Shown here one piece after another: positions 4,492-49,793 of a stretch of DNA of 64,000 nucleotides. The notes under the pieces are model-generated. The model did not search any database. It was not told where the DNA came from and saw only the letters and a list, made by a program, of their open reading frames with translations. The position numbers and the translations under genes were made by a program. The first letter of the stretch is position 1. Every line of letters starts with the position of its first letter. Source of the stretch: Alloalcanivorax xenomutans (lineage in GTDB: Bacteria > Pseudomonadota > Gammaproteobacteria > Pseudomonadales > Alcanivoracaceae); assembly GCF_900217905.1 (NCBI RefSeq), contig NZ_OBMO01000003.1:1-64000 (forward strand). The letters are read 5' to 3'.

Positions 4492-4503
4492 GGATAAAGA
4501 GCA

Positions 4504-33267: not shown

Positions 33268-34089
33268 TCAGCCCGCCGCGGCGATCAAGCGACGGGCTCG
33301 TTGAATCACAGGCTCATCCACCATCTGTCCGTCCAACTGGAAAGTGGCACCGTGTTCGGCGACACCGTCCACCACTCGACGGGCCCACTCCAGTTGCTCG
33401 CTGGTGGGGGAAAAGGCCCGCCGCACCGGTTCGATCTGCCCGGGATGAATGCAGAGCATGCCGGTAAATCCCATTTGCGCGGCACGCAGTGCGACTGCCG
33501 CGACTTTCTCCGTGTTACGGAAATCGGGCTCCACGCTTTCCACCGGTCCGGCAAGACCGTTCAGCCGGCTGTGCAGGATCAGTTGAGCACGACACTGGTC
33601 CAGGATGGTGACGGCACCTTCGCTGCCGGCTTCGGCACCCAGATCCAGACTCAGATCCAAGGCCCCAAAGGTGAGCCGTTCGATGCCATCGCAGGCGGCG
33701 ATGTGTGGAATGTTGATCACGCCACGTACGCTTTCCACCAGTGGCCATAGCGCCTTGCCATCGATGCGGGCGCGCTGAACATCCCCGGCGCTTTCGGTCT
33801 TCGGCAGCATGATGCCGTGCACCGCATCGGCTTGGGAGCACAGGGCAATATCTGCTTCGAAGTGATCCGTGCTGGCGCCATTCATGCGCACGAACAAGGG
33901 CGTCGTGGCTTGCTCGAGGAAATCGGCCAGGGCGCGGCGAGCTTCGGCTTTGTCCGCCTCGGCCACCGCATCTTCAAGATCGATGATCACCAGGTCCGCG
34001 CCGCTGGCCTGGGCCTTGGCCACCCGCTCCAGACGGGTGGCGGGCACGAACAGCATGGTGCGGGCATCACGGGACGCTCTCAAGGCCAT
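33268..34089 (-). CDS. CitE-like CoA ester lyase, probable (S)-citramalyl-CoA lyase
   Basis: The 273-residue protein is of the HpcH/HpaI-CitE family. It has RTMLFVPATRLERVAKA at the N-terminus, the metal-binding VIIDLEDAVAEADK, the FVRMNG motif and GFTGMLCIHPGQIEPV near the C-terminus. In Pseudomonas aeruginosa, Ccl, next to an itaconate CoA transferase, splits (S)-citramalyl-CoA into acetyl-CoA and pyruvate. The same neighbours are present here, so that reaction is inferred. It follows the CoA transferase with no gap. Malyl-CoA-type lyase activity cannot be excluded. Confidence 0.87.
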   Translation of the reverse strand: MALRASRDARTMLFVPATRLERVAKAQASGADLVIIDLEDAVAEADKAEARRALADFLEQATTPLFVRMNGASTDHFEADIALCSQADAVHGIMLPKTESAGDVQRARIDGKALWPLVESVRGVINIPHIAACDGIERLTFGALDLSLDLGAEAGSEGAVTILDQCRAQLILHSRLNGLAGPVESVEPDFRNTEKVAAVALRAAQMGFTGMLCIHPGQIEPVRRAFSPTSEQLEWARRVVDGVAEHGATFQLDGQMVDEPVIQRARRLIAAAG

Positions 34090-35286
34090 TCAGATTACTC
34101 CCGCCTGTTGGAACTGTTCGATATCGCCGTCATCGTAACCCAGCTCGGCGAGAATAGCCGCGCTGTGCTCGCCCAGGTCCGGCACGGCGTCCATACGCGG
34201 CTGAAACGCATTGCTGGCTCCGGGAGGCAGTAATGCCGGCAATGGCCCCCTGGGGCTGCCGATCTCGGTCCAGCGTTGCCGGGCGGCTAGTTGCGGGTGC
34301 CGCCAGACTCCATGCATGTCGTTGACATGAGCATTGGCGATGCGCGCATCATCGAGGCGGCGAATCACTTCCTCGGCATCCAATTCCGCGAAGACACCCA
34401 GGATCAGTGACTTCAGTGCTGCCCGGTTATGGACCCGTTGGGAATTGGAGGCAAAACGTTCATCGTCGGCCAGCTCGGCCTGTAGCAGGACTTGTTCGCA
34501 GAACACACGCCATTCCCGCTCATTCTGCAGTCCCAGCATCACGGTGCCGCCATCGCCGGTGTCGAATGGGCCGTAAGGATAGATAGTAGCGTGGGCGGCG
34601 CCAGTGCGCGGCGGCGGTTCGGCGCCTTCGAACGCGTAGTAGAGCGGGTAGTTCATCCACTCCACCAGACTCTCCAGCATGGAAACGTCGATACGGCTGC
34701 CTTTGCCGGTGCTCTGGCGCAGCAGCAGAGCGTTGAGGATATGAGTGTAGGCGTACATACCAGCGGAAATGTCGGCGATGGAACAACCGGCCTTGGCCAT
34801 GTCGTCCGGGGTGCCGGTGACGGACAGGAAGCCGCCCTCACTCTGGATCAACAGATCGTAAGCTTTCTTGTCCTGGTAAGGGCCGCCTTCGCCGTAACCG
34901 GAGATGTCGCAAACGATCAGTTTTGGGAAGCGCTCGTGCAGTGCTTCGAACGACAGTCCGAGGCGGGCGGCGGCGCCGGGAGCCAGGTTCTGCACCAGCA
35001 CGTCGGCTTGTTCAAGCAGGCGTTGCAGTACCGGGGTGGCGGTATCGTGCTTCAGATCCAGCGTCAGACTTTCCTTGGAGCGGTTGGTCCAAACGAAATG
35101 GGAGGCCAGACCGTGGACCCGTTCGTCATAGCCACGGGCGAAGTCGCCGACGCCGGGGCGCTCTACCTTGATCACCCGCGCGCCCATATCCGCCAGCTGG
35201 CGGGTACAAAACGGCGCGGCGATGGCATGCTCCAGGCTGACCACGGTAATGCCGTCCAGGGGCCGGGGAGAAGCGGTGGTACTCAT
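34090..35286 (-). CDS. CaiB/BaiF class III CoA transferase, probable itaconate/succinate type
   Basis: This 398-residue class III CoA transferase has LDGITVVSLEHAIAAPFCTRQLADMGARVIKVERPG at the N-terminus (FrcA/CaiB pattern). The AGCSIADISAGMYA motif carries the Asp expected to form the acyl anhydride. It probably moves CoA from succinyl-CoA to a dicarboxylate such as itaconate, as Ict does in Pseudomonas. The long open frame begins at 35373; ATG 35286 with TAGGAG upstream gives the normal N-terminus. The stop abuts the lyase gene. Confidence 0.87.
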   Translation of the reverse strand: MSTTASPRPLDGITVVSLEHAIAAPFCTRQLADMGARVIKVERPGVGDFARGYDERVHGLASHFVWTNRSKESLTLDLKHDTATPVLQRLLEQADVLVQNLAPGAAARLGLSFEALHERFPKLIVCDISGYGEGGPYQDKKAYDLLIQSEGGFLSVTGTPDDMAKAGCSIADISAGMYAYTHILNALLLRQSTGKGSRIDVSMLESLVEWMNYPLYYAFEGAEPPPRTGAAHATIYPYGPFDTGDGGTVMLGLQNEREWRVFCEQVLLQAELADDERFASNSQRVHNRAALKSLILGVFAELDAEEVIRRLDDARIANAHVNDMHGVWRHPQLAARQRWTEIGSPRGPLPALLPPGASNAFQPRMDAVPDLGEHSAAILAELGYDDGDIEQFQQAGVI

Positions 35287-35346
35287 TCTTGTGCTCCTAC
35301 AGCTGCGATGGGCGCTTTCTCTGGCAAAGGCAGGTCGGCGGCCCTG

Positions 35347-35369
35347 GGACGCGGGGTAACCCCGCGTCC
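35347..35369 (-). terminator. hairpin upstream of CoA transferase (possible attenuator)
   Basis: GGACGCGGGG (35347-35356) pairs perfectly with CCCCGCGTCC (35360-35369) over a 3-base loop. It lies between the MmgE/PrpD stop and the CoA-transferase start. No T tract follows, so it may stabilise or partly attenuate the operon mRNA. Confidence 0.5.
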
Positions 35370-35376
35370 TCACGGT

Positions 35377-36729
35377 TCAAATCAGGGGAGTGACGTTGTC
35401 GGCGTCATGCAGTGTCCAGACACGCTCGATGACGGTGCCCATGGCGTCCTCGGAAAGGGTGCCGGCGAAACGCGCCAGCCGACGGAATTTATCTTCCAAT
35501 TCCGCCCGGTTCAGCGTATTGCCTGGGTCACCTTTGGGTTCATCGATGCTGCCGTGCAGGGTACGGCCATCTCTGGTGACCACATCCACCCGGCCGAGCC
35601 AGCGCGCCGGGTAGGCCCCGTCCACTTCGGCGTCCAGCTGCATTGTGACCTTGTCACGAAACGCGGCGACCGCGGCATCGTCCAGTGGGATCTGGTGAAA
35701 CTCCGACAGACCGGCATGGCCGTGCAGCGCAATCAGGCCCAGCACCGTTCCCATGGAGAACTTGGCCTGGTGGATAGTGGCCGGAATGTCCACGCGGCCG
35801 AGTACATCGATGGCGCCCTGGTGCACCCGGGCGGTGACGGATTCGATGTCATCCGCCTTGAGATCGTGCTCCCGCATGACCGCCAGCAGGGCATCCGCCG
35901 CCGGGTGAGTATGGCGGCAGGATGCGTGGAACTTGAACGAGGTTTCCGACAGCGCCCAGCGTTCGCCGAGGCGATCATTGAGAAAACGGGCATCGGCGTC
36001 CCGGGACAAGCCGGCGGCGAGCCCCTGATCGCCTTCGAGGATATTGCGTGCTCCGGTCAGCCCATCGGCGGTGAGACAGGCGGCCAGCACGCCATCCGCC
36101 GCTGCCTTGGCGGTGTGCAGTTGTTTGGAGTCGGCGGCGTCGCGCAGGAATTCCCATAAGCCCGAGGCCTGGGTGCCGGCACTGCCGAGAAGGTTGATGA
36201 AACCGTCCCGGTCCAGTCCCAGAATTTTGCCGGCGGCCACCGCCGCCGCCAAGGTGCCGACGGTACCGGTGGTATGGAAGATGCGGTAGTGGGAGCGGCC
36301 GAGAAATTCGCCGATGCGAATGCCGGCCTCGTAGCCGGCCACCGAGGCGACGATCAGATCACGACCGCTTCCGCCCTGTTCCTGAGCCATCGCCAGGGCG
36401 GCGGGAAATACCACCGTGGCCGGGTGCAGTACCGAGCTGTTGTGTAGATCGTCCTGTTCCACCACATGGGAAGCGGCGCCGTTGACCAGCGCGGCGAAGT
36501 AGGCGGAAGTGTTGGTGCCGTCCACCAGATTCTGGACAGCACCGGAAGCGGGGCCCATGCGCCGTGCATAGCCAGCGAACAGCGGGATAGGGTGTTGACC
36601 GCTGCCGGCGATCAAGGATCCCAGCCAGTCGAGGAACAGATCCTCGGTGCGGGCCACCACCGCTTCCGGCAGGTCCTCATAGCGCAGCTCGGCGAGAAAC
36701 GAGGCCAGGGCCCGGGTTGCGTCGCTCAT
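35377..36729 (-). CDS. MmgE/PrpD family protein
   Basis: The 450-residue protein has the MmgE/PrpD pattern: FLDWLGSLIAGSGQHP, NGAASHVVEQDDLHNSSVLHPATVV and AGYEAGIRIGEFLGRSHY in the first half, then TSFKFHASCRHTHPAADALL. Characterised members are 2-methylcitrate dehydratase (PrpD) and cis-aconitate decarboxylase (Irg1/CadA); most bacterial homologues are undefined. A homologue (PA0881) lies in the Pseudomonas itaconate cluster between the same partners. Its exact substrate here is unknown; a hydroxylated or branched dicarboxylate is plausible. AAGGAG lies before ATG 36729. Confidence 0.88.
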   Translation of the reverse strand: MSDATRALASFLAELRYEDLPEAVVARTEDLFLDWLGSLIAGSGQHPIPLFAGYARRMGPASGAVQNLVDGTNTSAYFAALVNGAASHVVEQDDLHNSSVLHPATVVFPAALAMAQEQGGSGRDLIVASVAGYEAGIRIGEFLGRSHYRIFHTTGTVGTLAAAVAAGKILGLDRDGFINLLGSAGTQASGLWEFLRDAADSKQLHTAKAAADGVLAACLTADGLTGARNILEGDQGLAAGLSRDADARFLNDRLGERWALSETSFKFHASCRHTHPAADALLAVMREHDLKADDIESVTARVHQGAIDVLGRVDIPATIHQAKFSMGTVLGLIALHGHAGLSEFHQIPLDDAAVAAFRDKVTMQLDAEVDGAYPARWLGRVDVVTRDGRTLHGSIDEPKGDPGNTLNRAELEDKFRRLARFAGTLSEDAMGTVIERVWTLHDADNVTPLI

Positions 36730-36738
36730 GTTCGCTCC

Positions 36739-37902
36739 TTAGAAGGACCGTGGCAGTTCGAGCAGGTGCTCGGCCACGTAAGAGAGAATCAGATTGGTGG
36801 AAATCGGAGCCACCTGATACAGGCGGGTTTCACGGAATTTCCGTTCCACGTCGTATTCGCAGGCGAAGCCGAAACCGCCGTGGGTTTGCAAGCACACGTT
36901 GGCGGCTTCCCAGGACGCCTTGGCCGCCAGGTATTTGGCCATGTTGGCGGCGGCGCCGGCATTGAGGCCGGAATCGTATTGTTCACAGGCACGCCAGCGC
37001 ATCAGGTCGGCGGCCTCCACTTCGATGTGCGCTTCGGCAATGGGAAACTGAATGCCCTGGTTCTTGCCGATCGGGCGGCCGAACACTTCCCGGTCACGGG
37101 CATAGCGGCTGGCCTTGTCGATGAACCAGCGGCCATCGCCGATGCACTCCGCGGCGATCAGCGTGCGCTCGGCGTTGAGGCCATCCAGGATATAGCGGAA
37201 GCCTTTGCCTTCCTCGCCGATCAGCGCCTCGGCGGGAATTTCCAGATTGTCGAAGAACAACTCATTGGTGACGTGATGCACCATGTTGGCGATCGGCTGG
37301 ACCGTCATGCCATTGCCGATGGCCTGGTGCAGATCCACCAGAAAGATGGACATGCCATCGGTTTTTTTCTTCACCTGATCCAGCGGAGTGGTGCGCGCCA
37401 GCAGGATCATCAGGTCGGAATGCTGAATACGGGAGATCCAGACTTTCTGACCGTTGATGACATAACGGTCGCCCTTGCGCACCGCGGTGGTCTTGATCTT
37501 GGTGGTGTCGGTCCCGGTGGTCGGTTCGGTGACCCCCATGGACTGCAGGCGCAGCTCGCCGCGGGCGATACGTGGCAAATAGTGATCCTTTTGCTCGGCG
37601 GAGCCGTTACGCAGCAGCGTGAACATGTTGTACATCTGGCCGTGCACGGTGCCGGAGTTGCCGCCACAGCGATTCACTTCTTCCAGTATCACCGAGGCTT
37701 CCGCCAACCCCAGACCGGAACCGCCATACTCCTCCGGGATCATCGCCGCCAGCCATCCGGCCTGAGTCAGTGCGGTAACAAACTCTTCCGGGAAGTCCTG
37801 TCGCTCATCGACGCCACGCCAATAAGCGTCGTCGAACCCGGCGCACAGGCCGCGTACACCGTCACGAATGGCATCCAGGGCTTCTTTATCGTACTGAATC
37901 AT
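36739..37902 (-). CDS. acyl-CoA dehydrogenase (itaconate-cluster type)
   Basis: This 387-residue FAD enzyme has MGVTEPTTGTDTTKIKT and NGQKVWISRIQHSDLMILLARTTP in the central beta region, and ASWEAANVCLQTHGGFGFACEYDVERKFRETRLYQVAPIS near the C-terminus. It matches the dehydrogenase position (PA0879) in the Pseudomonas itaconate operon. It may desaturate a methylsuccinyl-type or other branched acyl-CoA feeding into itaconyl- or mesaconyl-CoA; this is an inference. It shares one base with the upstream MaoC-like gene (TAATG) and is followed by MmgE/PrpD after 9 bases. Confidence 0.9.
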   Translation of the reverse strand: MIQYDKEALDAIRDGVRGLCAGFDDAYWRGVDERQDFPEEFVTALTQAGWLAAMIPEEYGGSGLGLAEASVILEEVNRCGGNSGTVHGQMYNMFTLLRNGSAEQKDHYLPRIARGELRLQSMGVTEPTTGTDTTKIKTTAVRKGDRYVINGQKVWISRIQHSDLMILLARTTPLDQVKKKTDGMSIFLVDLHQAIGNGMTVQPIANMVHHVTNELFFDNLEIPAEALIGEEGKGFRYILDGLNAERTLIAAECIGDGRWFIDKASRYARDREVFGRPIGKNQGIQFPIAEAHIEVEAADLMRWRACEQYDSGLNAGAAANMAKYLAAKASWEAANVCLQTHGGFGFACEYDVERKFRETRLYQVAPISTNLILSYVAEHLLELPRSF

Positions 37903-38738
37903 TAACGGGTCTCCTCGAATTCAACTTCACCGACATGGGCCTGGCCCTGTTCGTTGCCGGCCATGACCCGGGCAACCCCGGGGGACTCAATAACACCACC
38001 GACCTGAAAAGGCTCAGGTGCGATCAACGGACGCATGCCCCGATAGCGGAATACCTTGGCGACCTTGTCCGGATTGGACTGGACAAACGCTCGCATCACC
38101 AGGGTGGCGATCAGGGGTCCGTGTACCACCAGGCCCGGATAGCCTTCCTCTCCGGTGGTGTAGGGCCAGTCGTAATGGATGCGGTGGGAATTGAAGGTCA
38201 CCGCGGAATAACGGAACAACAGGGTGGCTTCCGGTTTGATGGTATCGGCCCACTGCAGCTCCGGCATGGGCTCACCGATGGAGGCCTTCAGCGGTACCGG
38301 TTCACGGTACACGATGTCCTGTCGCTCGCTCACTTTCTCCTCGTCGTCCTGAAGGTAGCGGTGCCGAACGGTAATGAAGGTGAGCGAGCCACTGCGGCCG
38401 TGTTTTTCCTTGATGTCCTCGATCCGGCTGTGTCGCCGCGCCGGCACCCCTGCGCGCAACGGGCTGTTGAAACGCACCTCGCCGCCGGCCCACATACGTT
38501 GGCAGTCGCGAATCGGTGGCAGGAAATCACCGGGGAGGGGATGGCCATCCGGCCCCAGGGTGTCCATGCCGGAAACCGGTTGAAAGAATGCCCACTGCCA
38601 CAGATGGGGAAGGGCGTCTCCGGTGCTCAGGGGGGCGCCGCCAAGTGTGGCGGTCACCCGGGCCAGGGCGTGAAGGTCCAGACTGTCGTCCTGGATCTGC
38701 TCCTTGCCCAGCCACTTATTCGCGTTATCCAAGGCCAT
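37902..38738 (-). CDS. MaoC/HTD2-like hydratase, probable itaconyl-CoA hydratase
   Basis: The 278-residue protein is a double-hotdog MaoC-type hydratase of the HTD2/mesaconyl-C4-CoA hydratase group. It has LPHLWQWAFFQPVSGMDTLGPDGHP in the N-terminal half and RIHYDWPYTTGEEGYPGLVVHGPLIATLVMR, the catalytic region, in the C-terminal half. In Pseudomonas, Ich of this family hydrates itaconyl-CoA to citramalyl-CoA. It is the first gene of the leftward operon and lies behind the GTATAC operator. ATG 38738 with GGAG upstream is the best start. Confidence 0.88.
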   Translation of the reverse strand: MALDNANKWLGKEQIQDDSLDLHALARVTATLGGAPLSTGDALPHLWQWAFFQPVSGMDTLGPDGHPLPGDFLPPIRDCQRMWAGGEVRFNSPLRAGVPARRHSRIEDIKEKHGRSGSLTFITVRHRYLQDDEEKVSERQDIVYREPVPLKASIGEPMPELQWADTIKPEATLLFRYSAVTFNSHRIHYDWPYTTGEEGYPGLVVHGPLIATLVMRAFVQSNPDKVAKVFRYRGMRPLIAPEPFQVGGVIESPGVARVMAGNEQGQAHVGEVEFEETR

Positions 38739-39085
38739 GCGCAGGCTCCGCAATAGATAAAACAGGCATATGAAAAAGAAATCGGGCTACCCGTTGGGCT
38801 CGGGAGGGGAGTCACATCAAGAGAAGGAACCGATTTGCTTTTGTATACGGTATACAGTATACATTGATCACGCAACAGGAAAGCGAGCCTGTCGTTCTTT
38901 GATTTCGGCGGGTTTGGCGAAAAACTACAGACGCGTGGTAAGGGTTCTCTGCCTGTGTCGGATTTGGCCAAGAAGGAGAGCATCCATTCCGCGTCACGCC
39001 GCTCCGGTGGGCGGTGGCATAAAGATCCTGAATACAAATACTGATGGTGGGCCGGCTCAGGCTGGTTCCACGGCGGAGGATAGTG
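38739..39085. promoter_or_regulatory. divergent promoter region of itaconate-like operon and AraC gene
   Basis: These 347 bases lie between the leftward catabolic operon and the rightward AraC-family gene and hold no supported gene. The key element is the GTATAC array at 38842-38863. The AraC ribosome site GGAGGA is at 39075-39080. Confidence 0.6.
38842..38863. promoter_or_regulatory. GntR-type operator: three GTATAC hexamers at 7-bp spacing
   Basis: GTATAC occurs at 38843-38848, 38850-38855 and 38857-38862. The first two form a perfect 15-base palindrome, TGTATACGGTATACA (38842-38856). The same array is found in front of the GntR gene at 48.6 kb. FCD-type GntR proteins bind palindromes with a GT...AC core, so this is probably their operator. 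Confidence 0.75.
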
Positions 39086-40150
39086 ATGAATATCCGGTTT
39101 GACGGCTCGGCGATGACCACCAGTCATACCATTTCCATTCATCATGTGGAGCAAATGCTGGCGGGTGCGTGCCGACACGGAGTGGACCCGGAGCCGGTGA
39201 TGCAGCGTGCCGGGATCCCGGTGCGGTTGCTGAAATCACCATTGTCCCGTGTCTCCCAGGACCAATACGCGCGGCTGATGTACCTGTTGAGACGTGATCT
39301 TCGCGATGAATTCTTCGGTCTGTGCAGCCACCCGGTGCCATTGGGGGCCTTCGCTCATATGTGCCAGGACCTGATCCAGTGCGAAACCCTTGGCGATGCC
39401 TTGCGTCGGGGCTTCACGTTTTACCATTTATTGTTGAAGGATTTCGTGCCACGTTTGGTGGTGCAAGGGGAAACCGCCCATGTCTGTGTGCGTGACCAGG
39501 GTGACGAGCCCGCCTGTCTGAGCTATGCCAAACGCATGTTTATGTTCTTTACCTGGGGCGTGTCGTCCTGGCTGGCGGCAAGACGGATTCCCTTGCAACA
39601 AGTCAGCTATCAGGACATGGGCGATGGCAAAAGCAACCGTATCCATTTGATTTTCGACGCGCCATTGAAGGCCAACGACAACTGCTTCGGCTTCACCTTC
39701 GAATCGCGTTGGCTGGAGTTGCCGGTAGTGCAGAACCGCTTGAGTCTGACCTCCTTTCTGCGTCAGGCACCGGCCAACCTGTTGGTGCGTTATCGGGACG
39801 AAACCTCTTGCAGCGAGCGGATTCGGCGGCTGCTGCGCCGTCATCTGAGTTCTGGATTGCCAACACTGGAAGAAGTCGGTTCGGTGCTGGGGATGACGCC
39901 GCAAACCGTACGCCGGCGCCTGCGTGATGAAGGCCAGTGTTATCAAGGGCTGAAGGACAACCTGCGTTGCGATGCGGCGATCGAGTATCTGTCGCGTCCG
40001 GACCTGAATCTGGTGGACGTGGCATCAAAACTGGGTTTTTCCGAACTGAGTACCTTCCATCGCGCCTTCAAGAAATGGACCGGTCTGCCGCCGGGTGAAT
40101 ACCGCTATACCCGCCTGAAGGCGGCCCGCCCCTATCTGAATATGCAATGA
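39086..40150 (+). CDS. AraC-family transcriptional regulator
   Basis: The 354-residue protein has an N-terminal AraC-ligand-binding-type domain (about 30-200, arabinose_bd/OruR-like, with QMLAGACRHGVDPEPVMQRAGIP). A C-terminal double HTH (about 250-345) follows, with LEEVGSVLGMTPQTVRRRLRDEG and the second helix region NLVDVASKLGFSELSTFHRAFKKWTGLPPGEYR. It is divergent from the itaconate-like operon, so it likely activates one or both flanking catabolic operons. ATG 39086 with GGAGGA 5 bases upstream was chosen over an in-frame start at 39044. Confidence 0.92.
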   Translation: MNIRFDGSAMTTSHTISIHHVEQMLAGACRHGVDPEPVMQRAGIPVRLLKSPLSRVSQDQYARLMYLLRRDLRDEFFGLCSHPVPLGAFAHMCQDLIQCETLGDALRRGFTFYHLLLKDFVPRLVVQGETAHVCVRDQGDEPACLSYAKRMFMFFTWGVSSWLAARRIPLQQVSYQDMGDGKSNRIHLIFDAPLKANDNCFGFTFESRWLELPVVQNRLSLTSFLRQAPANLLVRYRDETSCSERIRRLLRRHLSSGLPTLEEVGSVLGMTPQTVRRRLRDEGQCYQGLKDNLRCDAAIEYLSRPDLNLVDVASKLGFSELSTFHRAFKKWTGLPPGEYRYTRLKAARPYLNMQ

Positions 40151-40228
40151 AGACATGCGATGCGTGGAGCGGGCTTGGCCGAATCCATCACCGCTGTCGG
40201 TGTGCGGGCGCTCTGGAGAGCGGAATGG

Positions 40229-40257
40229 CCAATGGTTTTGATGGTGATGGCCATTGG
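40229..40257. promoter_or_regulatory. inverted repeat upstream of second catabolic operon
   Basis: CCAATGG (40229-40235) and CCATTGG (40251-40257) form a 7-bp inverted repeat with 15 bases between, about 100 bases upstream of the acyl-CoA dehydrogenase start. It could be an operator for the AraC-family regulator encoded just before it. Confidence 0.35.
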
Positions 40258-40359
40258 TCGTGCAGCGGCCCTTGGGCATGCTGAGTACAACAAAAACAGC
40301 CAACGGCGTGGTTAAGCACCTGCGAAGCGTGTGATGGACTCTCGCCGAGGAGAATACCA

Positions 40360-41517
40360 ATGACACAGTGGCAGTCCGCCTGGATTGATGACGAACTGAG
40401 AATTTTTCAGGATTCCGTACGCAAGATTTTCGAGCGCGAGTTCGTGCCCCAGGAGGAAAAATGGCGCAAGCAGCGTCACCCGGATCGTGAGGTCTGGCCC
40501 AAACTTGGTGAGCTGGGCCTGTTGTGTGCCAGTATCCCGTCCGAGTACGGCGGTGGCGGCGGCACCTTCGCCCATGAGGCCGTGATCTGCATGGAGCAGG
40601 CCCGCGCTCAGGTGAGCAGCTTCAGCATCAGCGTGCATAGCGGCATCGTGTCTCACTACATTCTCAATTACGGCACCGAGGAGCAGCGCAAGAAATGGCT
40701 GCCGCAATTGGCCAGTGGCCAGCGGGTCGCCGCCATCGCCATGAGTGAACCGGGAGCCGGCTCTGATTTACAGGCGGTGCGGACCACCGCGCTCCGTGAT
40801 GGTGATGAGTATGTGATTAACGGCTCCAAAACCTTTATCACCAACGGCTATCACGCCGAATTGATCTGTGTGGTGGCGAAAACCGATACCCAGGCCAAGG
40901 GCAGCCGCGGTATTTCCCTGGTAATGGTGGAAACGGAAAAAGTCAGCGGTTTTCGCCGTGGGCGCATCCTGGAAAAAATCGGCCAGAAAGGGCAGGACAC
41001 CGCGGAGCTGTTTTTCGATGACGTGCGCGTACCAGCGGAAAATGTCCTGGGCGGTGCCGAGGGCAAGGGTTTCGTGCAACTGATGGAGCAACTGCCGCGC
41101 GAGCGCATGTTCATCGCCGTGGGCGCCGTGGCCACCATGCAGAAGGCCATTGATGAGACCACTGCTTATGTGAAGGATCGCAAGGTGTTTGGTCAGCGCC
41201 TTATGGATATGCAGAACACTCGTTTCAAATTGGCGGAGTGTCAGACCCAGGCGACGGTGGCGCGCTGTTTCGTCGATGATTGTGTCTACAAAGTGATCCG
41301 TGGCGAGCTGGACGTGCCCACCGCCGCCATGGCGAAGTGGTGGACCACGCAGTTGAACTGCCAGATCATCGATGAATGTCTGCAATTGCATGGCGGCTAC
41401 GGTTACATGGAAGAGTATCCGATCTCGCGGATGTACACCGATGCCCGGGTGGGCAAGATCTATGGCGGTGCCAACGAGATCATGAAGGAAATCATCGCCC
41501 GTTCCATGGATCAATGA
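40360..41517 (+). CDS. acyl-CoA dehydrogenase
   Basis: The 385-residue flavoprotein has AIAMSEPGAGSDLQAVRTTA and NGSKTFITNGYHAELICVVAKTD in its FAD/substrate region, the KIGQKGQDTAELFFDDVRVP motif and a C-terminal QLHGGYGYMEEYPISRMYTDARVGKIYGGANEIMKEII. This is the general long/medium-chain ACAD form. GAGGAGA lies before ATG 40360. It starts a rightward operon with ligase, DUF35 protein, thiolase and another dehydrogenase. The exact acyl group is not predictable. Confidence 0.93.
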   Translation: MTQWQSAWIDDELRIFQDSVRKIFEREFVPQEEKWRKQRHPDREVWPKLGELGLLCASIPSEYGGGGGTFAHEAVICMEQARAQVSSFSISVHSGIVSHYILNYGTEEQRKKWLPQLASGQRVAAIAMSEPGAGSDLQAVRTTALRDGDEYVINGSKTFITNGYHAELICVVAKTDTQAKGSRGISLVMVETEKVSGFRRGRILEKIGQKGQDTAELFFDDVRVPAENVLGGAEGKGFVQLMEQLPRERMFIAVGAVATMQKAIDETTAYVKDRKVFGQRLMDMQNTRFKLAECQTQATVARCFVDDCVYKVIRGELDVPTAAMAKWWTTQLNCQIIDECLQLHGGYGYMEEYPISRMYTDARVGKIYGGANEIMKEIIARSMDQ

Positions 41518-41530
41518 CGGGAGCGCATCG

Positions 41531-43228
41531 ATGACCTCTCCTCATCTGTCCTTCTATCCGAAAGGGTTGCCCGAGCGGATTCGCGCTCCGCAAACCACTC
41601 TGGTGGATAACCTGCGTATTTCCGCTTTGCGTTACCCGGACCGGCCTGCGTTGGTGTTTTACAACGGCGTGCTGAGCTATGGCGATCTGCAGAGGGACGT
41701 GCGATGCATGGCTGGTTATCTGCAGCAAGAATGTGGTGTGGCCAAGGGCGATCGCGTATTGCTCTACACTCAGAACTGTCCGCAGTTCACCGTTGCCTTC
41801 TATGCGGTGATGTCGCTGGGGGCGGCGGTAGTGCCGGTAAACGCCATGAGCACTCATGAGGAGCTGGCCTATTACTTCGAAAATAGCGGCGCCCGTCTGG
41901 CATTCTGTGCCGCCGACCTGTACAGCAATCTGCGCCCCTGTGTGGATAGTGGCCTGGTTACCCGGGTGATTCTGCATCAGTACCGGGATTACCTTAGCGA
42001 TCCGCGAGATCCGCTGGTTCCTGGCTGGATCGCGGTGGCGCAGGAAGAAGTGACGGACCCGGCGGTGGTGACCTGGGCTGAAGCCCTTGCCGCGGAACAG
42101 ACTCCGATGCCGGCGGCTTTTGACGCTGATCAGATGTGTGTGCTGCCTTACACCTCCGGCACCACCGGTCACCCCAAGGGCTGCATCCATACCCACCGCA
42201 CCCTGGGATACGCTATTTATTCCTCGTCGTTGTGGCGTGCCCTCAATGCCGAATCGGTGTTTCTGTCGGTGGCGCCGATGTTCCACATGCTGGGCCTGCA
42301 AAGTGGTATGAACATGCCGATTCTGCTCGGCGCTACCACGGTGATACTGCCGCGCTGGGATCGGGATATGGCGGCACGGCTGATCGACCAATGGGGTGTC
42401 AGTGTGTGGGGCGCGCCGCCGGCGATGATCATCGACTTTTTCGCCAAGCCGGATATCGCCGATTATGACCTGTCGCGCCTGAGCTTGATCTTTGGCGGCG
42501 GCGCGGCGATGCCGGAGGCGGTATCGCGGACCTTGAAGGAAGATCACGGGATCGCGTTCAACGAATCCTATGGTCTGACCGAGACCTCCGCTTTTTTGCA
42601 TGCCAACCCCGTGCACCGTAACAAACGCCAGTGTCTGGGGGTGCCCACCTTTGGCGTGGATTCCCGTGTGGTCGATCCGGAAACTCTGGAGCCCTTGCCG
42701 CTGGGCGAAGTGGGTGAGCTGATCACCAGCGGACCACAGGTAATGGAAGGGTATTGGCATAACGACGAGGCCAATCGTGAGTCCTTTCTTGAACGCGATG
42801 GGCGCCGCTTTTTTCGTACCGGTGACCTGGCCTGTATCGATGAGGATGGCTACTTCTTCATGAAGGACAGGCTCAAGCGCATGATCAACGTGTCCGGCTA
42901 CAAAGTGTGGCCGGCGGAAGTGGAAAATTTCATGTATGACCATCCGGCGGTTCAGGAGGCCTGTGTCATCGGCGTGCCGGACAGCCGTCGCGGTGAAGTG
43001 GTCATGGCGATTCTGGTTGTCAAGGACCGCTACCGCGGCCAGGTTACCGAAGAACAGGTGATCGACTGGGCGCGGGAAAAAATGGCGGTGTACAAAGCGC
43101 CCCGCCGGGTGGAATTCGTCGATGCCTTACCGAAGTCCGGCGCTGGCAAGATCCTCTGGCGTCAGTTACAGGACGAACAACGGGCTTTGGTTGGCGACGG
43201 TGATGTTATGGCGGCCGGGGACGCATGA
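41531..43228 (+). CDS. AMP-forming acyl-CoA ligase (long-chain type)
   Basis: The 565-residue adenylate-forming enzyme activates a carboxylic acid to its CoA ester. The AMP-binding LPYTSGTTGHPKG, the YGLTETSAFL motif, the FRTGDLACIDEDGYF hinge and the KRMINVSGYKVWPAEVE region are all intact. The C-terminal KSGAGKILWRQL holds the catalytic lysine expected in this family. It lies 13 bases after the first dehydrogenase of the operon. The acid is unknown; the context suggests an alkyl-branched or functionalised fatty acid. Confidence 0.93.
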   Translation: MTSPHLSFYPKGLPERIRAPQTTLVDNLRISALRYPDRPALVFYNGVLSYGDLQRDVRCMAGYLQQECGVAKGDRVLLYTQNCPQFTVAFYAVMSLGAAVVPVNAMSTHEELAYYFENSGARLAFCAADLYSNLRPCVDSGLVTRVILHQYRDYLSDPRDPLVPGWIAVAQEEVTDPAVVTWAEALAAEQTPMPAAFDADQMCVLPYTSGTTGHPKGCIHTHRTLGYAIYSSSLWRALNAESVFLSVAPMFHMLGLQSGMNMPILLGATTVILPRWDRDMAARLIDQWGVSVWGAPPAMIIDFFAKPDIADYDLSRLSLIFGGGAAMPEAVSRTLKEDHGIAFNESYGLTETSAFLHANPVHRNKRQCLGVPTFGVDSRVVDPETLEPLPLGEVGELITSGPQVMEGYWHNDEANRESFLERDGRRFFRTGDLACIDEDGYFFMKDRLKRMINVSGYKVWPAEVENFMYDHPAVQEACVIGVPDSRRGEVVMAILVVKDRYRGQVTEEQVIDWAREKMAVYKAPRRVEFVDALPKSGAGKILWRQLQDEQRALVGDGDVMAAGDA

Positions 43229-43288
43229 TCGGACGAGTCGCCGGGTGGCCTTTCCACCGGGCTGGCGGTAATTACGAGGAGAGCAAAC

Positions 43289-43678
43289 ATGGTTAACCAA
43301 GAGGGTGGCGTGCAGGCCATCTATCAAGCGGCTCTGGATCAGGGGCGTTTCGAAATTCAACGCTGCAATGACTGTGGGGATGCGATTTTTTTTCCACGTG
43401 AACTTTGCCCCGGTTGTGGCAGTGGCGACCTGTCCTGGTTCAGCCCCAGCGGCAAGGGGACGGTCTATGCGGTGACCACGGTGCGGCGCAAACCGGAAGC
43501 CGGTGGTGACTACAACGTCTCTTTGATAGATCTTGAAGAAAACGTCCGGCTGATGAGCCGGATTGAAAACGCGGCCCCGGAAGAGGTGAAAATCGGCATG
43601 GCGGTGAAGGCCCGGGTGACGGTAAACGAGGGGCATGGCCTGTTGGTGTTTCATGCGATGGAAGGAGCGGCACAATGA
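43289..43678 (+). CDS. DUF35 OB-fold/zinc-ribbon protein, partner of adjacent thiolase
   Basis: The 129-residue protein has the DUF35 layout. An N-terminal helix and rubredoxin-like zinc ribbon with CNDCG and CPGCG pairs are followed by an OB-fold (GTVYAVTTVRRKPEAGG to VKARVTVNEGHGLLVFHAM). DUF35 proteins form complexes with thiolase-like enzymes and help bind acyl-CoA. The start has GAGGAGAG upstream. Its stop overlaps the thiolase start in ATGA, supporting a complex. Confidence 0.92.
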   Translation: MVNQEGGVQAIYQAALDQGRFEIQRCNDCGDAIFFPRELCPGCGSGDLSWFSPSGKGTVYAVTTVRRKPEAGGDYNVSLIDLEENVRLMSRIENAAPEEVKIGMAVKARVTVNEGHGLLVFHAMEGAAQ

Positions 43679-44853
43679 GCGGTGATCTGAATAATTTGCG
43701 CGGCAAATTCGCCATCGCTGGTGTGGCGACCTTCGGTTGTGGCGAGGCGCCGGGTTATACCGACATGGAGCTGCTGGCTCAGGCCGCGCGTCTGGCGGTG
43801 GCCGATGCCGGCCTGACAATGAAGGATATCGACGGTCTGTGCACCGCCAGTGCCTCATCCACCATGTGGTCGATGCCGGTGGTGGAGTACCTGGGAATTC
43901 GTCCCCGTTTCATCGACGCCACCATGATCGGCGGGTCCAGTTTCATCGCCCACCTGATGCCGGCGATGCAAGCGCTGGAGTCCGGTCAGTGTGACGCGGT
44001 ACTGGTGGCCTACGGCAGCGCCCAGCGCACCTCCACATTGAGCCGCAAGGAAATTGGCAAGGCTCGCCTGCTGATGGACCCGCAACCCTACGAGCATCCT
44101 TATCAACCGATGCTGCCGATGTCCGCGTATGCGCTGGCGGCGTCACGCCACATGCATGAGTTCGGCACAACCCGCCGGCAATTGGCGCAAGTGGCGGTGT
44201 CGGCGCGCCAATGGGCGCGGAAGAATGCGGACGCGTTCATGCGTGATCCGCTGACCGTGGACGATGTGCTCAATTCGCGCATGGTGTCCGATCCACTGAC
44301 CGTGCGTGATGCTTGCCTGGTCACCGATGGCGGCGGCGCTTACGTTTTGGTCCGCGCTGACCGCGCCCGCGATTTGCCGCAGCCGCCGGTGTATGTGCTC
44401 GGCCAGGGTACGGCGGTGTGGAATCGGCAAATCTCCAGCATGGCGGACCTGACCGTGACCGCCGCCACGCAATCCGGGCGTGACGCTTATGCCATGGCCG
44501 GAATGGGCCCCAAGGACATTGATGTGGCGGAGCTGTACGACGCCTTCACCATCAATACCTTGTTGTTCCTGGAAGACCTCGGCTTCTGTGCCAAGGGCGA
44601 AGCCGGCGCCTTCGTGGAGGAGGGGAACATATCCCCCGGTGGCAGCCTGCCGGTGAATACCAATGGCGGCGGCTTGTCCTGGGGGCACCCGGGGATGTAC
44701 GGCATTTTCGCCGCCATCGAGGGCGTCCGTCAGTTGCGTGGTAACGCTGGAGACAGCCAGGTCGCCGGTGCGCAAACGGCGATTGTGCATGGCAACGGCG
44801 GTACGCTGTCCAGTCAATCCACCGCCATTCTGGGTACCGCCGCGGCGCTGTGA
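43675..44853 (+). CDS. thiolase-superfamily protein (SCP-x/Ltp2-like), no typical nucleophilic Cys
   Basis: The 392-residue protein is a lipid-transfer-type thiolase with ELYDAFTINTLLFLEDLGF, the NTNGGGLSWGHPGMYG region and the C-terminal HGNGGTLSSQSTAILG. At the place where thiolases carry the nucleophilic Cys, the sequence reads IGGSSFIAHLMPAMQAL, with Ser instead. Related DUF35-partnered enzymes such as Ltp2 act as retro-aldolases on steroid side-chain CoA esters rather than as thiolases. A retro-aldol or altered thiolytic reaction is therefore plausible. It is translated together with the DUF35 gene. Confidence 0.9.
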   Translation: MSGDLNNLRGKFAIAGVATFGCGEAPGYTDMELLAQAARLAVADAGLTMKDIDGLCTASASSTMWSMPVVEYLGIRPRFIDATMIGGSSFIAHLMPAMQALESGQCDAVLVAYGSAQRTSTLSRKEIGKARLLMDPQPYEHPYQPMLPMSAYALAASRHMHEFGTTRRQLAQVAVSARQWARKNADAFMRDPLTVDDVLNSRMVSDPLTVRDACLVTDGGGAYVLVRADRARDLPQPPVYVLGQGTAVWNRQISSMADLTVTAATQSGRDAYAMAGMGPKDIDVAELYDAFTINTLLFLEDLGFCAKGEAGAFVEEGNISPGGSLPVNTNGGGLSWGHPGMYGIFAAIEGVRQLRGNAGDSQVAGAQTAIVHGNGGTLSSQSTAILGTAAAL

Positions 44854-44895
44854 GGCGTCGATAATTCAAGGCGGCAATGCCGCCGGGAGGCCATC

Positions 44896-46047
44896 ATGAT
44901 ACGTGATCAGGAAACCATGAATACGCTGTTGGACACGATCAACCGCTTCGTACGCGAACGGCTGGTGCCCAACGAGGAATGGGTGGCGGAGCACGACGCC
45001 ATCCCCGAGGACATCGTCAGGGAGATGAAGGAGATCGGTCTGTTCGGGCTGACCATCCCCGAGGAATTCGGCGGCCTCGGTCTGACCATGGAAGAGGAAG
45101 TGCTGGTGATGTTCGAGATGGGGCGCACTTCACCGGCGTTCCGTTCGTTGTTCGGCACCACCGTGGGGATCGGTTCCCAGGGGATCCTGATGGACGGTAC
45201 TGATGAGCAGAAACAACAGTGGTTGCCGTCTCTGGCCACCGGTGAGGTGATGGCGTCGTTCGCGCTGACAGAGCCGGGGGCCGGTTCCGATGCCGCGTCC
45301 TTGCGGACCAGCGCGGTGAAGGACGGCGATCACTATGTGGTGAACGGCACCAAACGCTTTATCACCAATGCCCCACAGGCCGGTATTTTCACCTTGATGG
45401 CGCGTACTGATCCGGATGTGAAGGGCGCGGGCGGCATCTCCGCGTTTATCGTCGACGCCAAAACTCCGGGAATCTCGCTGGGTAAACCAGACAGCAAAAT
45501 GGGCCAGAAAGGCGCCCATACCTGTGATGTGGTGTTCGAGGACTGCCGGGTGCCGGCGGCTAACATCATCGGTGGCAAGCCCGGCGTGGGCTTCAAGACG
45601 GCCATGAAAGTGCTGGACAAAGGGCGGATTCATATCGCCGCCATCTGTGTCGGCGTGGCCGAACGTATGCTGGACGATGCTCTGCGCTATGCCGCTGAAC
45701 GCGAGCAGTTCGGTCAGGCCATTGGTGAATTCCAACTGGTGCAAGCAATGCTGGCCGACAGCAAGGCGGAGATCTACGCCTCCCGTTGCATGGTTCTGGA
45801 TGCGGCCCGTCGTCGGGATGACGGTGAAAACGTCAGCACCGAGGCCGCTTGCTGCAAAATGTACGCTTCGGAAATGTGCGGTCGCGTGGCGGACCGCGCG
45901 GTGCAGATTCACGGTGGCGCCGGCTATATGTCCGAATACGGCATCGAGCGGTTTTACCGTGATGTGCGGCTGTTCCGTATTTATGAAGGCACCACTCAGA
46001 TTCAACAGATTGTAATCGCACGCAATATGTTGCGCGCGGTGCGTTAG
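44896..46047 (+). CDS. acyl-CoA dehydrogenase
   Basis: The 383-residue enzyme has the ACAD signatures ASFALTEPGAGSDAASLRTSAV, NGTKRFITNAPQAGIFTLMARTD and KMGQKGAHTCDVVFEDCRVP. The C-terminal AVQIHGGAGYMSEYGIERFYRDVRLFRIYEGTTQIQQIVIARNML is typical of medium/short-chain forms. GGAGG lies before ATG 44896. It is the fifth gene of the rightward operon, 42 bases after the thiolase. With the enzyme at 40360 it gives this operon two different desaturation steps. Confidence 0.93.
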   Translation: MIRDQETMNTLLDTINRFVRERLVPNEEWVAEHDAIPEDIVREMKEIGLFGLTIPEEFGGLGLTMEEEVLVMFEMGRTSPAFRSLFGTTVGIGSQGILMDGTDEQKQQWLPSLATGEVMASFALTEPGAGSDAASLRTSAVKDGDHYVVNGTKRFITNAPQAGIFTLMARTDPDVKGAGGISAFIVDAKTPGISLGKPDSKMGQKGAHTCDVVFEDCRVPAANIIGGKPGVGFKTAMKVLDKGRIHIAAICVGVAERMLDDALRYAAEREQFGQAIGEFQLVQAMLADSKAEIYASRCMVLDAARRRDDGENVSTEAACCKMYASEMCGRVADRAVQIHGGAGYMSEYGIERFYRDVRLFRIYEGTTQIQQIVIARNMLRAVR

Positions 46048-46128
46048 CGGTTCGCTCTCCACGCATGGCGGGGGGCCAACCGTCGTGCGTGCTTTTTATT
46101 CCAGCGGGTGGGTATCTCCGCCCGCCTC

Positions 46129-46150
46129 AAGCCCGTTCTCCACGGGCTTT
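46129..46150 (+). terminator. hairpin after the rightward catabolic operon
   Basis: AAGCCCGT (46129-46136) pairs with ACGGGCTT (46142-46149) over a 5-base loop, with a second weaker GCGGG/CCCGC stem just before it. It lies in the 187-base gap between the dehydrogenase and the next ligase. Only TT follows, so termination may be partial. Confidence 0.5.
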
Positions 46151-46178
46151 GGCCGTTTATTCCGTTCACAGGTGAATC

Positions 46179-46244
46179 ATGTCTGACCACGATATTGTTG
46201 TTCATGCCCGTTGCCGGGCAGGGGAGTACCGCCCATGTATCTGA
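46179..46244 (+). CDS. possible 21-residue leader peptide
   Basis: An ATG at 46179, with AGGTGA upstream, opens a 21-codon frame starting MSDHDIVVHARC. It ends with TGA at 46242-46244, overlapping the start of the following acyl-CoA ligase (46235) by 10 bases. It could couple translation of the ligase. No homology is recognised and it may be chance. Confidence 0.3.
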   Translation: MSDHDIVVHARCRAGEYRPCI

Positions 46245-47806
46245 CCCAGGGGTTGCACCGCGCGGTGCAGCAGGCTCCGGAACGCCTGGCCACGGTGGAT
46301 GGCGAACGCCGCCGCAGCTATCGAGAGTTGGCTGACCGTTGTGCCCGGCTGGCCGGTGGACTCACCGGCCTCGGTGTACAGGCCGGAGACCGGGTGGCGA
46401 TACTGGCCGCCAACTGCGATTATCATGCCGAGTATTTTCTTGGCTTGTGGTGGATGGGCGCGGTGGCCAATGCCGTGAATACCCGCTGGAATGTGAAGGA
46501 GATGGCGTACTCCCTCAACGACAGCGAAGCGGAGATACTGCTGGTCAGCGATGCTTTCCTGCCGATGGTGGAGACGCTCAAGGCGCGCTGTCCAGGGCTG
46601 CGCCATGTTCTGCATCTGGGGAGCACGCCATGCACCCATGCAGATGGGCCGGCGGGGATGATTCACTACGAGGATTTTCTGGCGCGGGCAACGCCGGTGG
46701 AGGATGGCCGCTTCGGCGGTGATCACCTGGCGGTGCTGCTGTATACCGGTGGCACTACCGGCTTTCCCAAAGGCGTGATGCTTTCCCATGACAATCTCTG
46801 GAGCTGCGCCATTACTCGCCTGGCGGAAAGCGACCCGCCTGATCCGTTCGTCACCTTGTTGGCGTCGCCGCTGTTCCATACCGCCGGCGTCGCCAAATTC
46901 ATCACCCAGATCGTGGTGGGCGGAACCGCGGTGATGATGCCGTCCTTCCGCGTGGAGGAGGTTCTGGCCACCATCGAGCGGGAAAAGATCACCGATGTGA
47001 TTCTGGTGCCAAGCATGATCCAGATGCTGGTGGATCACCCCGAGGTGCGAGAATACGATCTGAGCTCCCTGACACGGGTTGCCTATGGGGCCTCGCCTAT
47101 TTCCCTGGCGGTTCTGGAACGGGCCCTGGCGGTGTTTCCCGATGCGCAGTTCACTCATACCTATGGTATGACCGAGGCATCGCCGATGATCACGTTGAAC
47201 TCCTGGCGTAATCATCGTGGCGAGGCCTTGAGCAATGGCCGCATCCGTTCCGCCGGCAAAGCCACCTGGGGCATGGAAGTACGTATCGTCGACGAGGATG
47301 ACCGGGAAGTGCCCCGGGGCACCGTGGGTGAAGTGGTGGCGCGCGGTGACAACGTCATGTTGGGCTACTGGAACAATCCGGACGCCACCGCGGAAACCCT
47401 GCGCGGCGGCTGGTTGCATACCGGAGATGGCGGTTACATGGATGAGGACGGTTACATCTACATTGTCGACCGCATGAAGGACATGATCGTCAGCGGCGGT
47501 GAGAACGTGTACTGCGCGGAAGTGGAAAACGTGCTGGCCCGGCATCCGGCGGTGGCCAGCTGCGCGGTGATCGGCATTCCCCATGACACCTGGGGGGAGA
47601 GCGTGCACGCGGTGGTGGTGACGCAATCCGGCGTTGAGGTGTCAGCGGAAGAGTTGACCGATTTCTGCCGCGATGATCTGGCCGGCTACAAGTGTCCGCG
47701 TTCGGTGGAATTCCGCGACAGCCTGCCGTTGTCCGGCGCCGGCAAGGTGCTCAAGCAAGAGCTGCGGGAGCCCTATTGGCGGGGCCGCGCCCGCCGGGTG
47801 TCCTGA
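46235..47806 (+). CDS. AMP-forming acyl-CoA ligase (medium/long-chain type)
   Basis: The 523-residue acyl-CoA synthetase has VLLYTGGTTGFPKG, the YGMTEASPMI motif, LHTGDGGYMDEDGYIYIVDRMKDMI and GGENVYCAEVENVL. The LSGAGKVLKQELRE tail holds the expected catalytic Lys. It is a different subtype from the ligase at 41531, so the island can activate two kinds of acid or two stages of one pathway. ATG 46235 has GGGGAG upstream. It is convergent with gntR, 22 bases apart. Confidence 0.92.
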   Translation: MYLTQGLHRAVQQAPERLATVDGERRRSYRELADRCARLAGGLTGLGVQAGDRVAILAANCDYHAEYFLGLWWMGAVANAVNTRWNVKEMAYSLNDSEAEILLVSDAFLPMVETLKARCPGLRHVLHLGSTPCTHADGPAGMIHYEDFLARATPVEDGRFGGDHLAVLLYTGGTTGFPKGVMLSHDNLWSCAITRLAESDPPDPFVTLLASPLFHTAGVAKFITQIVVGGTAVMMPSFRVEEVLATIEREKITDVILVPSMIQMLVDHPEVREYDLSSLTRVAYGASPISLAVLERALAVFPDAQFTHTYGMTEASPMITLNSWRNHRGEALSNGRIRSAGKATWGMEVRIVDEDDREVPRGTVGEVVARGDNVMLGYWNNPDATAETLRGGWLHTGDGGYMDEDGYIYIVDRMKDMIVSGGENVYCAEVENVLARHPAVASCAVIGIPHDTWGESVHAVVVTQSGVEVSAEELTDFCRDDLAGYKCPRSVEFRDSLPLSGAGKVLKQELREPYWRGRARRVS

Positions 47807-47828
47807 GCGGCGCGATCTCGTTCCCCGT

Positions 47829-48515
47829 TCAACGCAACCCGGCGCCGCCGCTGGAGACATGGGCCAGCAGCCCTTCACCGGCGGCGGCGATATGACGGCG
47901 CATGGCCTCGGCCGCCGCTGCGGCGTCACCGGCGCGCAACGCTCGCACAATGGCCCAATGTTCCTGGCTGGATTCCGCCATGCGGTTCTCGATGGTGATC
48001 GGTGTCAGTGGTGGCACCCCCTGCCAGAGGGTGAGGACGATTTTCTGAGTGCGCGGCTGATTGGCGGCATCGTACAGCACCCGGTGAAAACGCTGATTGA
48101 GCGCCACATAGGCGGCGGAGTCGCCATCATCGGCGGCCTGGTCCATGTCCTGTTGCAACTGCTCCAGCTCGTCCAGTTCCTCGTCGCCCAGTTGGGGGCA
48201 GGCCTGGGCAACCATGTGGCCTTCCAGCAGCTCGCGCAGGGCATAGATCTCCTTGACGTCATCGACGCCGAAAGAACTGACCCGATAGGCGCCCCGACCC
48301 TCGGTTTCCACCAGGCCGTCCGCCTCCAGCCGGCGTAAAGCGTCACGCACCGGGATGCGGCTGGTACCGAAACGCTTGGCCAGGTCCTCCTGTACCAGGC
48401 GCTCGCCGCCGGCAATGTCTCCGCGCAGGATCGCTTCGCGCATGCGTATGTAGACTTCCTCCTCCATGGAGCGGCGGCGGACGGGAGCGAAAGGGTCGGT
48501 TTGGGTTCGCGGCAT
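47829..48515 (-). CDS. GntR-family (FCD) transcriptional regulator
   Basis: The 228-residue regulator has an N-terminal winged HTH (about 15-85) with GERLVQEDLAKRFGTSRIPVRDALRRLEADGLVE. A helical FCD ligand domain follows, with YALRELLEGHMVAQAC, the Asp/His-rich metal or ligand site FHRVLYDAA, and a later EHWAIVRALRAGDAAAAAEAMRRHI. It is probably a repressor relieved by an acid or acyl-CoA. A GTATAC array lies directly upstream and the same array lies before the itaconate-like operon, indicating autoregulation and control of the island. Confidence 0.92.
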   Translation of the reverse strand: MPRTQTDPFAPVRRRSMEEEVYIRMREAILRGDIAGGERLVQEDLAKRFGTSRIPVRDALRRLEADGLVETEGRGAYRVSSFGVDDVKEIYALRELLEGHMVAQACPQLGDEELDELEQLQQDMDQAADDGDSAAYVALNQRFHRVLYDAANQPRTQKIVLTLWQGVPPLTPITIENRMAESSQEHWAIVRALRAGDAAAAAEAMRRHIAAAGEGLLAHVSSGGAGLR

Positions 48516-48622
48516 AGTGTGTTTCTCAAACGCTAAGACAGTGTTTTCCCGAGTAATGGCGGGAGTTTACAGGATTTACCCGCTCCCGGCCCGGTGCAAG
48601 GGAGCGGAATCCGGCGTGGTCC

Positions 48623-48643
48623 GTGTACTGTATACAGTATACA
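48623..48643. promoter_or_regulatory. GntR-type operator between gntR and thioesterase
   Basis: Hexamers GTGTAC (48623-48628), GTATAC (48630-48635) and GTATAC (48637-48642) repeat at 7-bp spacing. The last two form a perfect palindrome, TGTATACAGTATACA (48629-48643). The last 14 bases are identical to 38850-38863. It sits in the divergent gap that holds both promoters. Confidence 0.78.
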
Positions 48644-48716
48644 ATGCGCCGGTCCGGATGCTGGCCGCAACGGCCATTTTCCCTTTTCAGCCAAGCAGAC
48701 AGGAGCGCACAGGTTA

Positions 48717-49127: not shown

Positions 49128-49132
49128 CCCAC

Positions 49133-49765: not shown

Positions 49766-49793
49766 GAGGTATCCGAACGGGGCAAAATGAGGT

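Follow-up and report, generated by a model that had tools for sequence, protein, structure and literature searches.

Two arrays of three GTATAC-type hexamers, each repeated at a fixed pitch of 7 bp, stand in the window (the whole stretch of 64,000 nucleotides that was analysed), one in front of an operon headed by a MaoC-family gene and one between gntR and a thioesterase gene. Judged by sequence comparison, both arrays are very probably operators of the FCD-type GntR regulator encoded in the same island. The arrays themselves are rare and conserved, and both gntR and the MaoC operon are linked to them.

Operator 1, GTATACgGTATACaGTATAC (GTATACGGTATACAGTATAC), occupies positions 38843-38862 and consists of three palindromic GTATAC hexamers at 7-bp pitch; operator 2, GTGTACtGTATACaGTATAC (GTGTACTGTATACAGTATAC), occupies positions 48623-48642, and neither is assigned a strand. 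A sequence-only reading of this DNA had placed the two arrays at 38842-38863 and 48623-48643. Both are present as described, but the first span was one base too wide at its ends and the second ran past its true end. The 14 identical consecutive bases attributed to the pair are found in each array as the run GTATACAGTATACA. The same reading had seen no further copy in the window, and this was borne out: a search allowing up to three mismatches returned the two arrays only, and 100 dinucleotide shuffles of the window produced no triple array. The genome search that it had proposed was run with GTRTACNGTATACNGTATAC at up to three mismatches over 4.35 Mb on 47 contigs (own genome, G000), and it revealed two arrays only at up to two mismatches rather than many unrelated copies. 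All remaining matches carried three mismatches: two lie elsewhere (contigs C9 and C30), and two are the array at 48623 read in a shifted register. A wider regulon in this genome was rejected as a candidate, with no further triple array at up to two mismatches.

Exact own-genome matches to the half-array GTATACNGTATAC are confined to the two arrays. When up to two mismatches are allowed, the half-array occurs 24 times in the genome, which is not above the 30 occurrences of a reversed-pattern control. That is to say, the triple is special and the hexamer pair alone is much less so. A single mismatch separates GTATACNGTATAC from two further hexamer pairs, at G000:C15:55513-55525 and G000:C41:1246-1258. 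Loosening the pattern to (GTNNACN)x3 adds three spots in the own genome, namely two ACAGTGA-type heptamer repeats and one mixed sequence. No match to the island GntR was found in the stretches fetched around these three spots, where one stretch was limited by a contig end and a highly divergent GntR would escape detection. As a general class of GntR operator in this genome, (GTNNACN)x3 is therefore unsupported. The ACAGTGA-type elements are simple heptamer repeats of 7-bp pitch that mimic (GTNNACN)n, at G000:C2:31805-31831 (L117, ~6001) and G000:C14:186228-186247 (L116, ~6001). A consensus scan of both window operator regions for sigma-70 promoters returned none, and Rfam at its gathering score assigned no RNA family within 36000-51000.

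Operator 1 lies ~105 bp upstream of the likely MaoC start codon (ATG 38738) and 180-220 bp upstream of the start of an AraC-family regulator gene (39086-40150, plus strand; PF12625, PF12833). The operon on its other side runs on the minus strand. It begins with the gene for a MaoC/FAS1-type dehydratase-family protein (37902-38753; PF13452) and continues with genes for an acyl-CoA dehydrogenase (ACAD, 36739-37902; placed by open reading frame and synteny and named from its translation by eye), an MmgE/PrpD family protein (35377-36729; PF03972, PF19305), a CaiB-type CoA-transferase (34090-35373; best NCBIfam model succinate-glutarate CoA-transferase at 242 bits, cut-off 750) and a CitE-like lyase (33268-34089; PF03328). 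PF13452 is the sole Pfam match of the MaoC protein, for which no NCBIfam model was found at 0.001. Itaconate is degraded by the products of the RipABC, or Ict-Ich-Ccl, operon. The operon described here likewise brings together a CoA-transferase, a MaoC-type hydratase and a CitE-like lyase; in contrast to the Rip/Ccl operon, its transferase is of the CaiB type, it contains additional PrpD and ACAD genes, and it is linked to a GntR regulator. The CitE-like protein also falls short of the NCBIfam RipC_Ccl model (160.7 bits, cut-off 375). From its gene content, the operon looks like one for degradation of a C5-dicarboxylate such as itaconate, mesaconate or methylsuccinate. Among distant relatives, conservation is 48-59% for MaoC and 46-56% for the CitE-like protein, versus 85-90% for ACAD, 74-86% for CaiB and 71-79% for PrpD.

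Operator 2 separates gntR (47829-48515, minus strand) from a divergent gene for a hotdog-fold thioesterase (48717-49127, plus strand; PF03061, TIGR00369). The gntR product is a member of the GntR superfamily, FCD subfamily (Pfam GntR 1.8e-15, FCD 1.3e-32), with an N-terminal GntR winged helix (PF00392, 56.8 bits, cut-off 27) and a C-terminal FCD domain (PF07729, 113.3 bits, cut-off 24.3). Its close relatives include proteins of A. balearicus (100% over 201 residues) and Alcanivorax sp. 24 (96%). The recognition helix carries R53 and R57, of which R53 aligns with Arg45 of Atu1419. Residues N140, H144, H186 and H208 align with the zinc ligands N137, H141, H192 and H214 of Atu1419 and are kept in ten aligned sequences, H208 lying beyond the truncated G018 sequence; they likely form a metal site. 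Such a site of Asn/Asp and three His residues is present in many FCD proteins, if not in every one. Approximately 16 residues precede the conserved domain and include a conserved PVRRR tail, which reads PIRRE in a Thermus relative; the start of the protein is uncertain in G034 and G035.

To place the two arrays in a wider setting, the array was sought at up to two mismatches, and the GntR protein at E ≤1e-25, in 46 genomes of the family. The array was found in 10 of the 46 and a GntR match of any kind in 19. Orthologs of gntR (59-100% identity) are carried by nine genomes (G000, G018, G019, G020, G022, G023, G029, G034 and G035; that of G018 is interrupted by a contig end), and every one of the nine contains the array. 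Within the other 37 genomes the array appears once, as a single two-mismatch match in G007 that lies inside a mechanical 123-aa open reading frame, with island proteins absent from the surrounding 3-kb stretch. Ten GntR-positive genomes possess paralogs only (32-36% identity); among these, all but G007 lack the array. Co-occurrence of array and gntR gives a Fisher p of 9e-9, uncorrected for kinship, which overstates the evidence because the nine genomes are close kin, seven from one genus and two from another. The co-occurrence partly reflects co-inheritance of the island.

An AraC ortholog of at least 58% identity is present in eleven genomes, namely the nine gntR carriers together with G031 and G033. 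These last two, from one genus, serve as negative controls: each possesses the MaoC operon and the AraC gene, no GntR was found in them at 1e-25, and the array was found neither genome-wide at up to two mismatches nor at up to five in the 18-19 kb fetched. MaoC nearly touches a CaiB-like gene in both. The AraC match in G033 contains one in-frame TGA. Conservation of the array itself was gauged from an ungapped, array-anchored alignment of five representatives (G000, G020, G022, G023 and G034; the near-duplicates G018, G019, G029 and G035 were omitted), where 16 of the 20 array columns show no variation, versus 3 of the 120 columns in the flanks. The remaining four array columns include the two N positions. 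Among the degenerate hexamers, GTGTAC, GTCTAC and GTCAAC retain the outer GT and AC, whereas TTATGC (G034, G035) does not retain them in full.

Gene maps of the nine islands, drawn from tblastn searches with 22 window proteins, identify which neighbor the array follows. A MaoC-family gene adjoins the array in all nine gntR-bearing genomes. Gene order downstream varies, with ACAD and PrpD swapped, and CaiB and CitE are then present in all nine. The AraC gene adjoins the array only in G000, G018, G019 and G029; it lies ~4-5 kb away in G020, G022, G023 and G034, and on a different contig in G035. The divergent partner in G020 is an SDR-like gene (by eye), whose initial sequence recurs in G022 and G023. 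A CaiB-like gene codirectional with MaoC lies upstream of it in G034 and G035. Three intact hexamers stand at MaoC in seven genomes and two in G034 and G035. Since the array ends ~30 bp upstream of the MaoC ATG in G020, it would have to overlap or touch the core promoter.

Inspection of the gntR side reveals greater variation. The first hexamer of that array differs among close relatives (GTGTAC, GTCTAC, GTCAAC) and the other two are kept. The gntR-thioesterase interval thus contains three units with the first decayed in G000, G018, G019 and G029, two intact units in G023 and a single GTATAC in G020 and G022; no hexamer was found in this interval in G034 and G035. The thioesterase gene of G022 (L100 6650-6830) looks degraded, with a start-like stretch only and no tblastn match at 1e-10. 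In G034 and G035, a degenerate array of 7-bp pitch with four to five units (by eye) lies beyond the thioesterase gene and before a porin gene of the DcaP family (PF19577 at 50.8 bits for the G034 copy). Downstream of the porin gene, these two genomes have a gene of the fatty acid desaturase family PF00487, by eye AlkB-like, and one judged TetR-like by eye (L105 14192-16935; L106 ~4481-4521). With one hexamer in G020 and G022 and none in G034 and G035, autoregulation of gntR would not be universal; as the gntR-side arrays differ among the nine genomes, the MaoC target appears fixed and autoregulation and the porin target appear variable.

These maps refine what the sequence-only reading had made of the arrays. 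Its proposal of a divergent operon/AraC promoter as the target stands for the MaoC operon and falls for the AraC gene, and because the latter lies away from the array in five of nine genomes, the conserved target is the MaoC, itaconate-like operon. Its proposal of one GntR regulon is well supported for two target promoters, with array and gntR linked in nine of nine genomes; the notion that the arrays tie together the ends of the island does not survive, operator 1 being situated mid-island. In the 209 bp upstream of the rightward operon (40360-47806) GTATAC does not occur, and inclusion of the whole island in one GntR regulon is therefore not supported.

Outside the family, the plasmid protein that matches the island GntR best comes from Thermus thermophilus pAA2-2c (51.1% identical across residues 1-186), and its recognition-helix stretch FGTSRIPVRDALRR is identical. 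The 75 bp between this gntR and a divergent operon contain GTATACtGTCAACcGTCAAC, which is composed of three GT-N2-AC units at 7-bp pitch. The divergent operon encodes fumarase subunits, ACAD, CaiB and MaoC, and the neighborhood also contains genes for a CitE-like lyase and a TRAP-TAXI transporter. The site is the sole GTNNAC triple in the 24.5-kb Thermus stretch and none arose in 300 shuffles, where the looser pattern was picked after the site had been seen and also matches the own genome at three non-GntR places. When the Thermus stretch is searched strictly with GTATACNGTATAC, the count stays within chance (3 matches; 23 of 100 shuffles reach 3).

Other plasmid relatives, among the matches listed, fall below 38% identity. 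Thirteen relatives of 26-38% identity were scanned, and the 7-bp hexamer pair was not found within 350 bp upstream of any; at least one GTATAC lies within that distance in 6 of the 13. Three close-kin loci of the same scan do possess the 7-bp pair and correspond to genomes already counted. From the lack of the pair in the 26-38% relatives, the 7-bp architecture seems specific to this ortholog group and not to FCD proteins at large. Searches for orthologs beyond the family matched 7 of 390 genomes in the order, 1 of 369 in the class and 2 of 398 in the phylum (limits 1e-40, 1e-35 and 1e-35; samples of larger groups with at most seven candidates scored per genome), and all of these are the own genome or known kin.

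All three hexamers in each array take the GT-N2-AC form of the FCD GntR operator signature, GT-Nx-AC, which is described for GntR operators in general (PMC4494728). Dimer sites of GT-N2-AC form are reported there for FadR-subfamily regulators (HypR, MdcY, PrpR, UxuR and others), and in 23 GntR ortholog groups weaker half-sites flank the centre of the site at 7-12 nt (PMC4494728). The extra boxes of that subfamily are weak half-sites, in contrast to the full-strength, whole palindromic repeats of the present arrays. A closer parallel at the level of one hexamer is the VanR-group FCD protein Atu1419 of Agrobacterium, described as a repressor of a catabolic pathway that also acts on its own promoter, a description we liken to the island GntR. 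Its dimer binds ATGTATACAT, with Arg45 of helix 3 placed on the guanine of GT, and altering the G-C pair of GT abolishes binding (PMC7797058). Crystals contain the dimer on a single 10-bp copy of that sequence (PDB 6Z74/6ZA*; PMC7797058). The GTATAC core, the 2-nt spacing between GT and AC and the N/H/H/H metal site are features in common. Because the Atu1419 dimer binds ATGTATACAT and both R53 and the metal ligands align, one hexamer is a plausible site for a single dimer. The Atu1419 operators differ in that they are separate 10-bp palindromes 190 bp apart, engaged by a tetramer with looping, and the account of them compared here describes no 7-bp array.

The precedent for an array is E. coli NanR, also an FCD-type GntR and a repressor that acts on a carboxylate catabolic operon through three close short repeats. 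Three NanR dimers assemble on (GGTATA)3; a single repeat is bound poorly, wider spacing weakens binding, and tight binding needs at least two repeats with fixed spacing (PMC8012715). Cooperativity is mediated by a 32-residue N-terminal extension that is needed for the higher complexes, and its authors present the mechanism as unique among reported GntR mechanisms (PMC8012715). NanR also controls the porin operon nanCMS (PMC3658417), which the array before the DcaP porin gene in G034 and G035 parallels. Three short repeats, closely and fixedly spaced in a target promoter, are likewise found here. In contrast, direct GGTATA repeats at 8-9 bp pitch are not: the NanR repeats were measured at 9 + 8 bp in K-12, versus palindromic GTATAC at exactly 7 bp in the window. 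The island GntR has ~16 residues in place of the 32-residue extension, and in sequence it resembles NanR only weakly (phmmer 7e-10, with the strongest match in the FCD domain; NCBIfam NanR model 71.5 bits, cut-off 260).

From these comparisons we infer a mechanism in which the GntR protein binds the arrays cooperatively, represses rather than activates, and responds to an effector. Each GT-N2-AC hexamer would be one dimer site, with Arg53 contacting the G of GT in each half. Adjacent dimers, two or three in number and probably cooperative, would line up at 7-bp pitch, covering the core promoter of the MaoC/ACAD/PrpD/CaiB/CitE operon as well as the gntR and thioesterase promoters and holding both off. 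A carboxylate or CoA ester of the C5-dicarboxylate-like pathway would bind the His3/Asn metal site of the FCD domain, and the ligand-bound GntR would be released such that the operon and gntR itself are switched on. In the GntR-FCD family, release of a repressor by a carboxylate is the usual pattern. As 7 bp corresponds to ~240 degrees of helix turn, three dimers are predicted to lie 120 degrees apart, and the conserved PVRRR tail before the winged helix is a candidate contact between them. More tentatively, the arrays may represent a distinct class of GntR-FCD operator, common to the Alcanivorax-type bacteria and the Thermus plasmid, in which whole palindromic dimer sites overlap at fixed 7-bp pitch and three dimers held by PVRRR encircle the promoter DNA; we consider this possible but below even odds.

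Within the operator assignment is nested a simpler reading, where a single GntR dimer occupies the array as an extended palindrome, GTATACNGTATAC, leaving the third hexamer spare and involving no multi-dimer assembly. Only two hexamers are intact in the gntR-side array of G023 and in the MaoC-side arrays of G034 and G035, the first hexamer of the gntR array decays, and the weaker half-sites of other GntR groups (PMC4494728) provide a model for such binding. The MaoC-side hexamers, however, are all intact in seven of nine genomes, the Thermus site retains three GTNNAC units, and an FCD dimer was crystallised on one 10-bp ATGTATACAT. Accordingly, the single-dimer arrangement seems rather unlikely, and assembly of several dimers on the array is moderately favored.

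Other readings assign the array to a different protein or to none. In the window, as in three close relatives, the AraC regulator (here at 39086) is the one encoded nearest to the array; were it the binder, the second copy would make gntR an AraC target. Against this, the array remains with MaoC in the five genomes where AraC lies elsewhere, G031 and G033 retain AraC (58-60% identity) and the operon without the array, and the hexamers match the GntR GT-Nx-AC signature (PMC4494728). We consider AraC a highly improbable binder and reject it, as the array tracks MaoC and not AraC. A different FCD paralog of the genome (e.g. C30:6342-6962, 38% identical) would share the GT-Nx-AC signature and is present to act, but nine of the ten paralog-only genomes lack the array and the tenth contributes only the stray G007 match, making a paralog equally improbable. 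A chance or non-regulatory repeat, such as a simple heptamer repeat or the end of a mobile element, could be suspected from the ACAGTGA-type repeats of 7-bp pitch elsewhere in the genome. Those repeats are located away from this GntR; the array never arose in 100 shuffles, it is selectively conserved as flanks and neighbors change, and its N positions differ between hexamers and genomes. This reading is very unlikely indeed. The preferred reading remains that both arrays are operators of the island GntR.

Operator arrays of the GntR-FCD family are already known as a kind from NanR. Among 5.39 million papers searched with the four exact 13-mers of GTATACNGTATAC, two contained one of them and neither is a GntR paper, as they concern barley and EBV by title; searches on itaconate with GntR and on Alcanivorax with GntR and operator returned none on this system, as judged by title and abstract start. 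The palindromic 7-bp version of the array and this regulon were not found in the literature searched. Relatives without gntR and arrays of one, two or three hexamers are natural controls that render the question directly testable. The arrays would provide a second, differently spaced case for GntR dimer assembly on tandem sites, beside NanR. For an acyl-CoA/dicarboxylate island of Alcanivorax-type bacteria that is apparently uncharacterised, the assignment would name the regulator, two operators and the operon that they serve.
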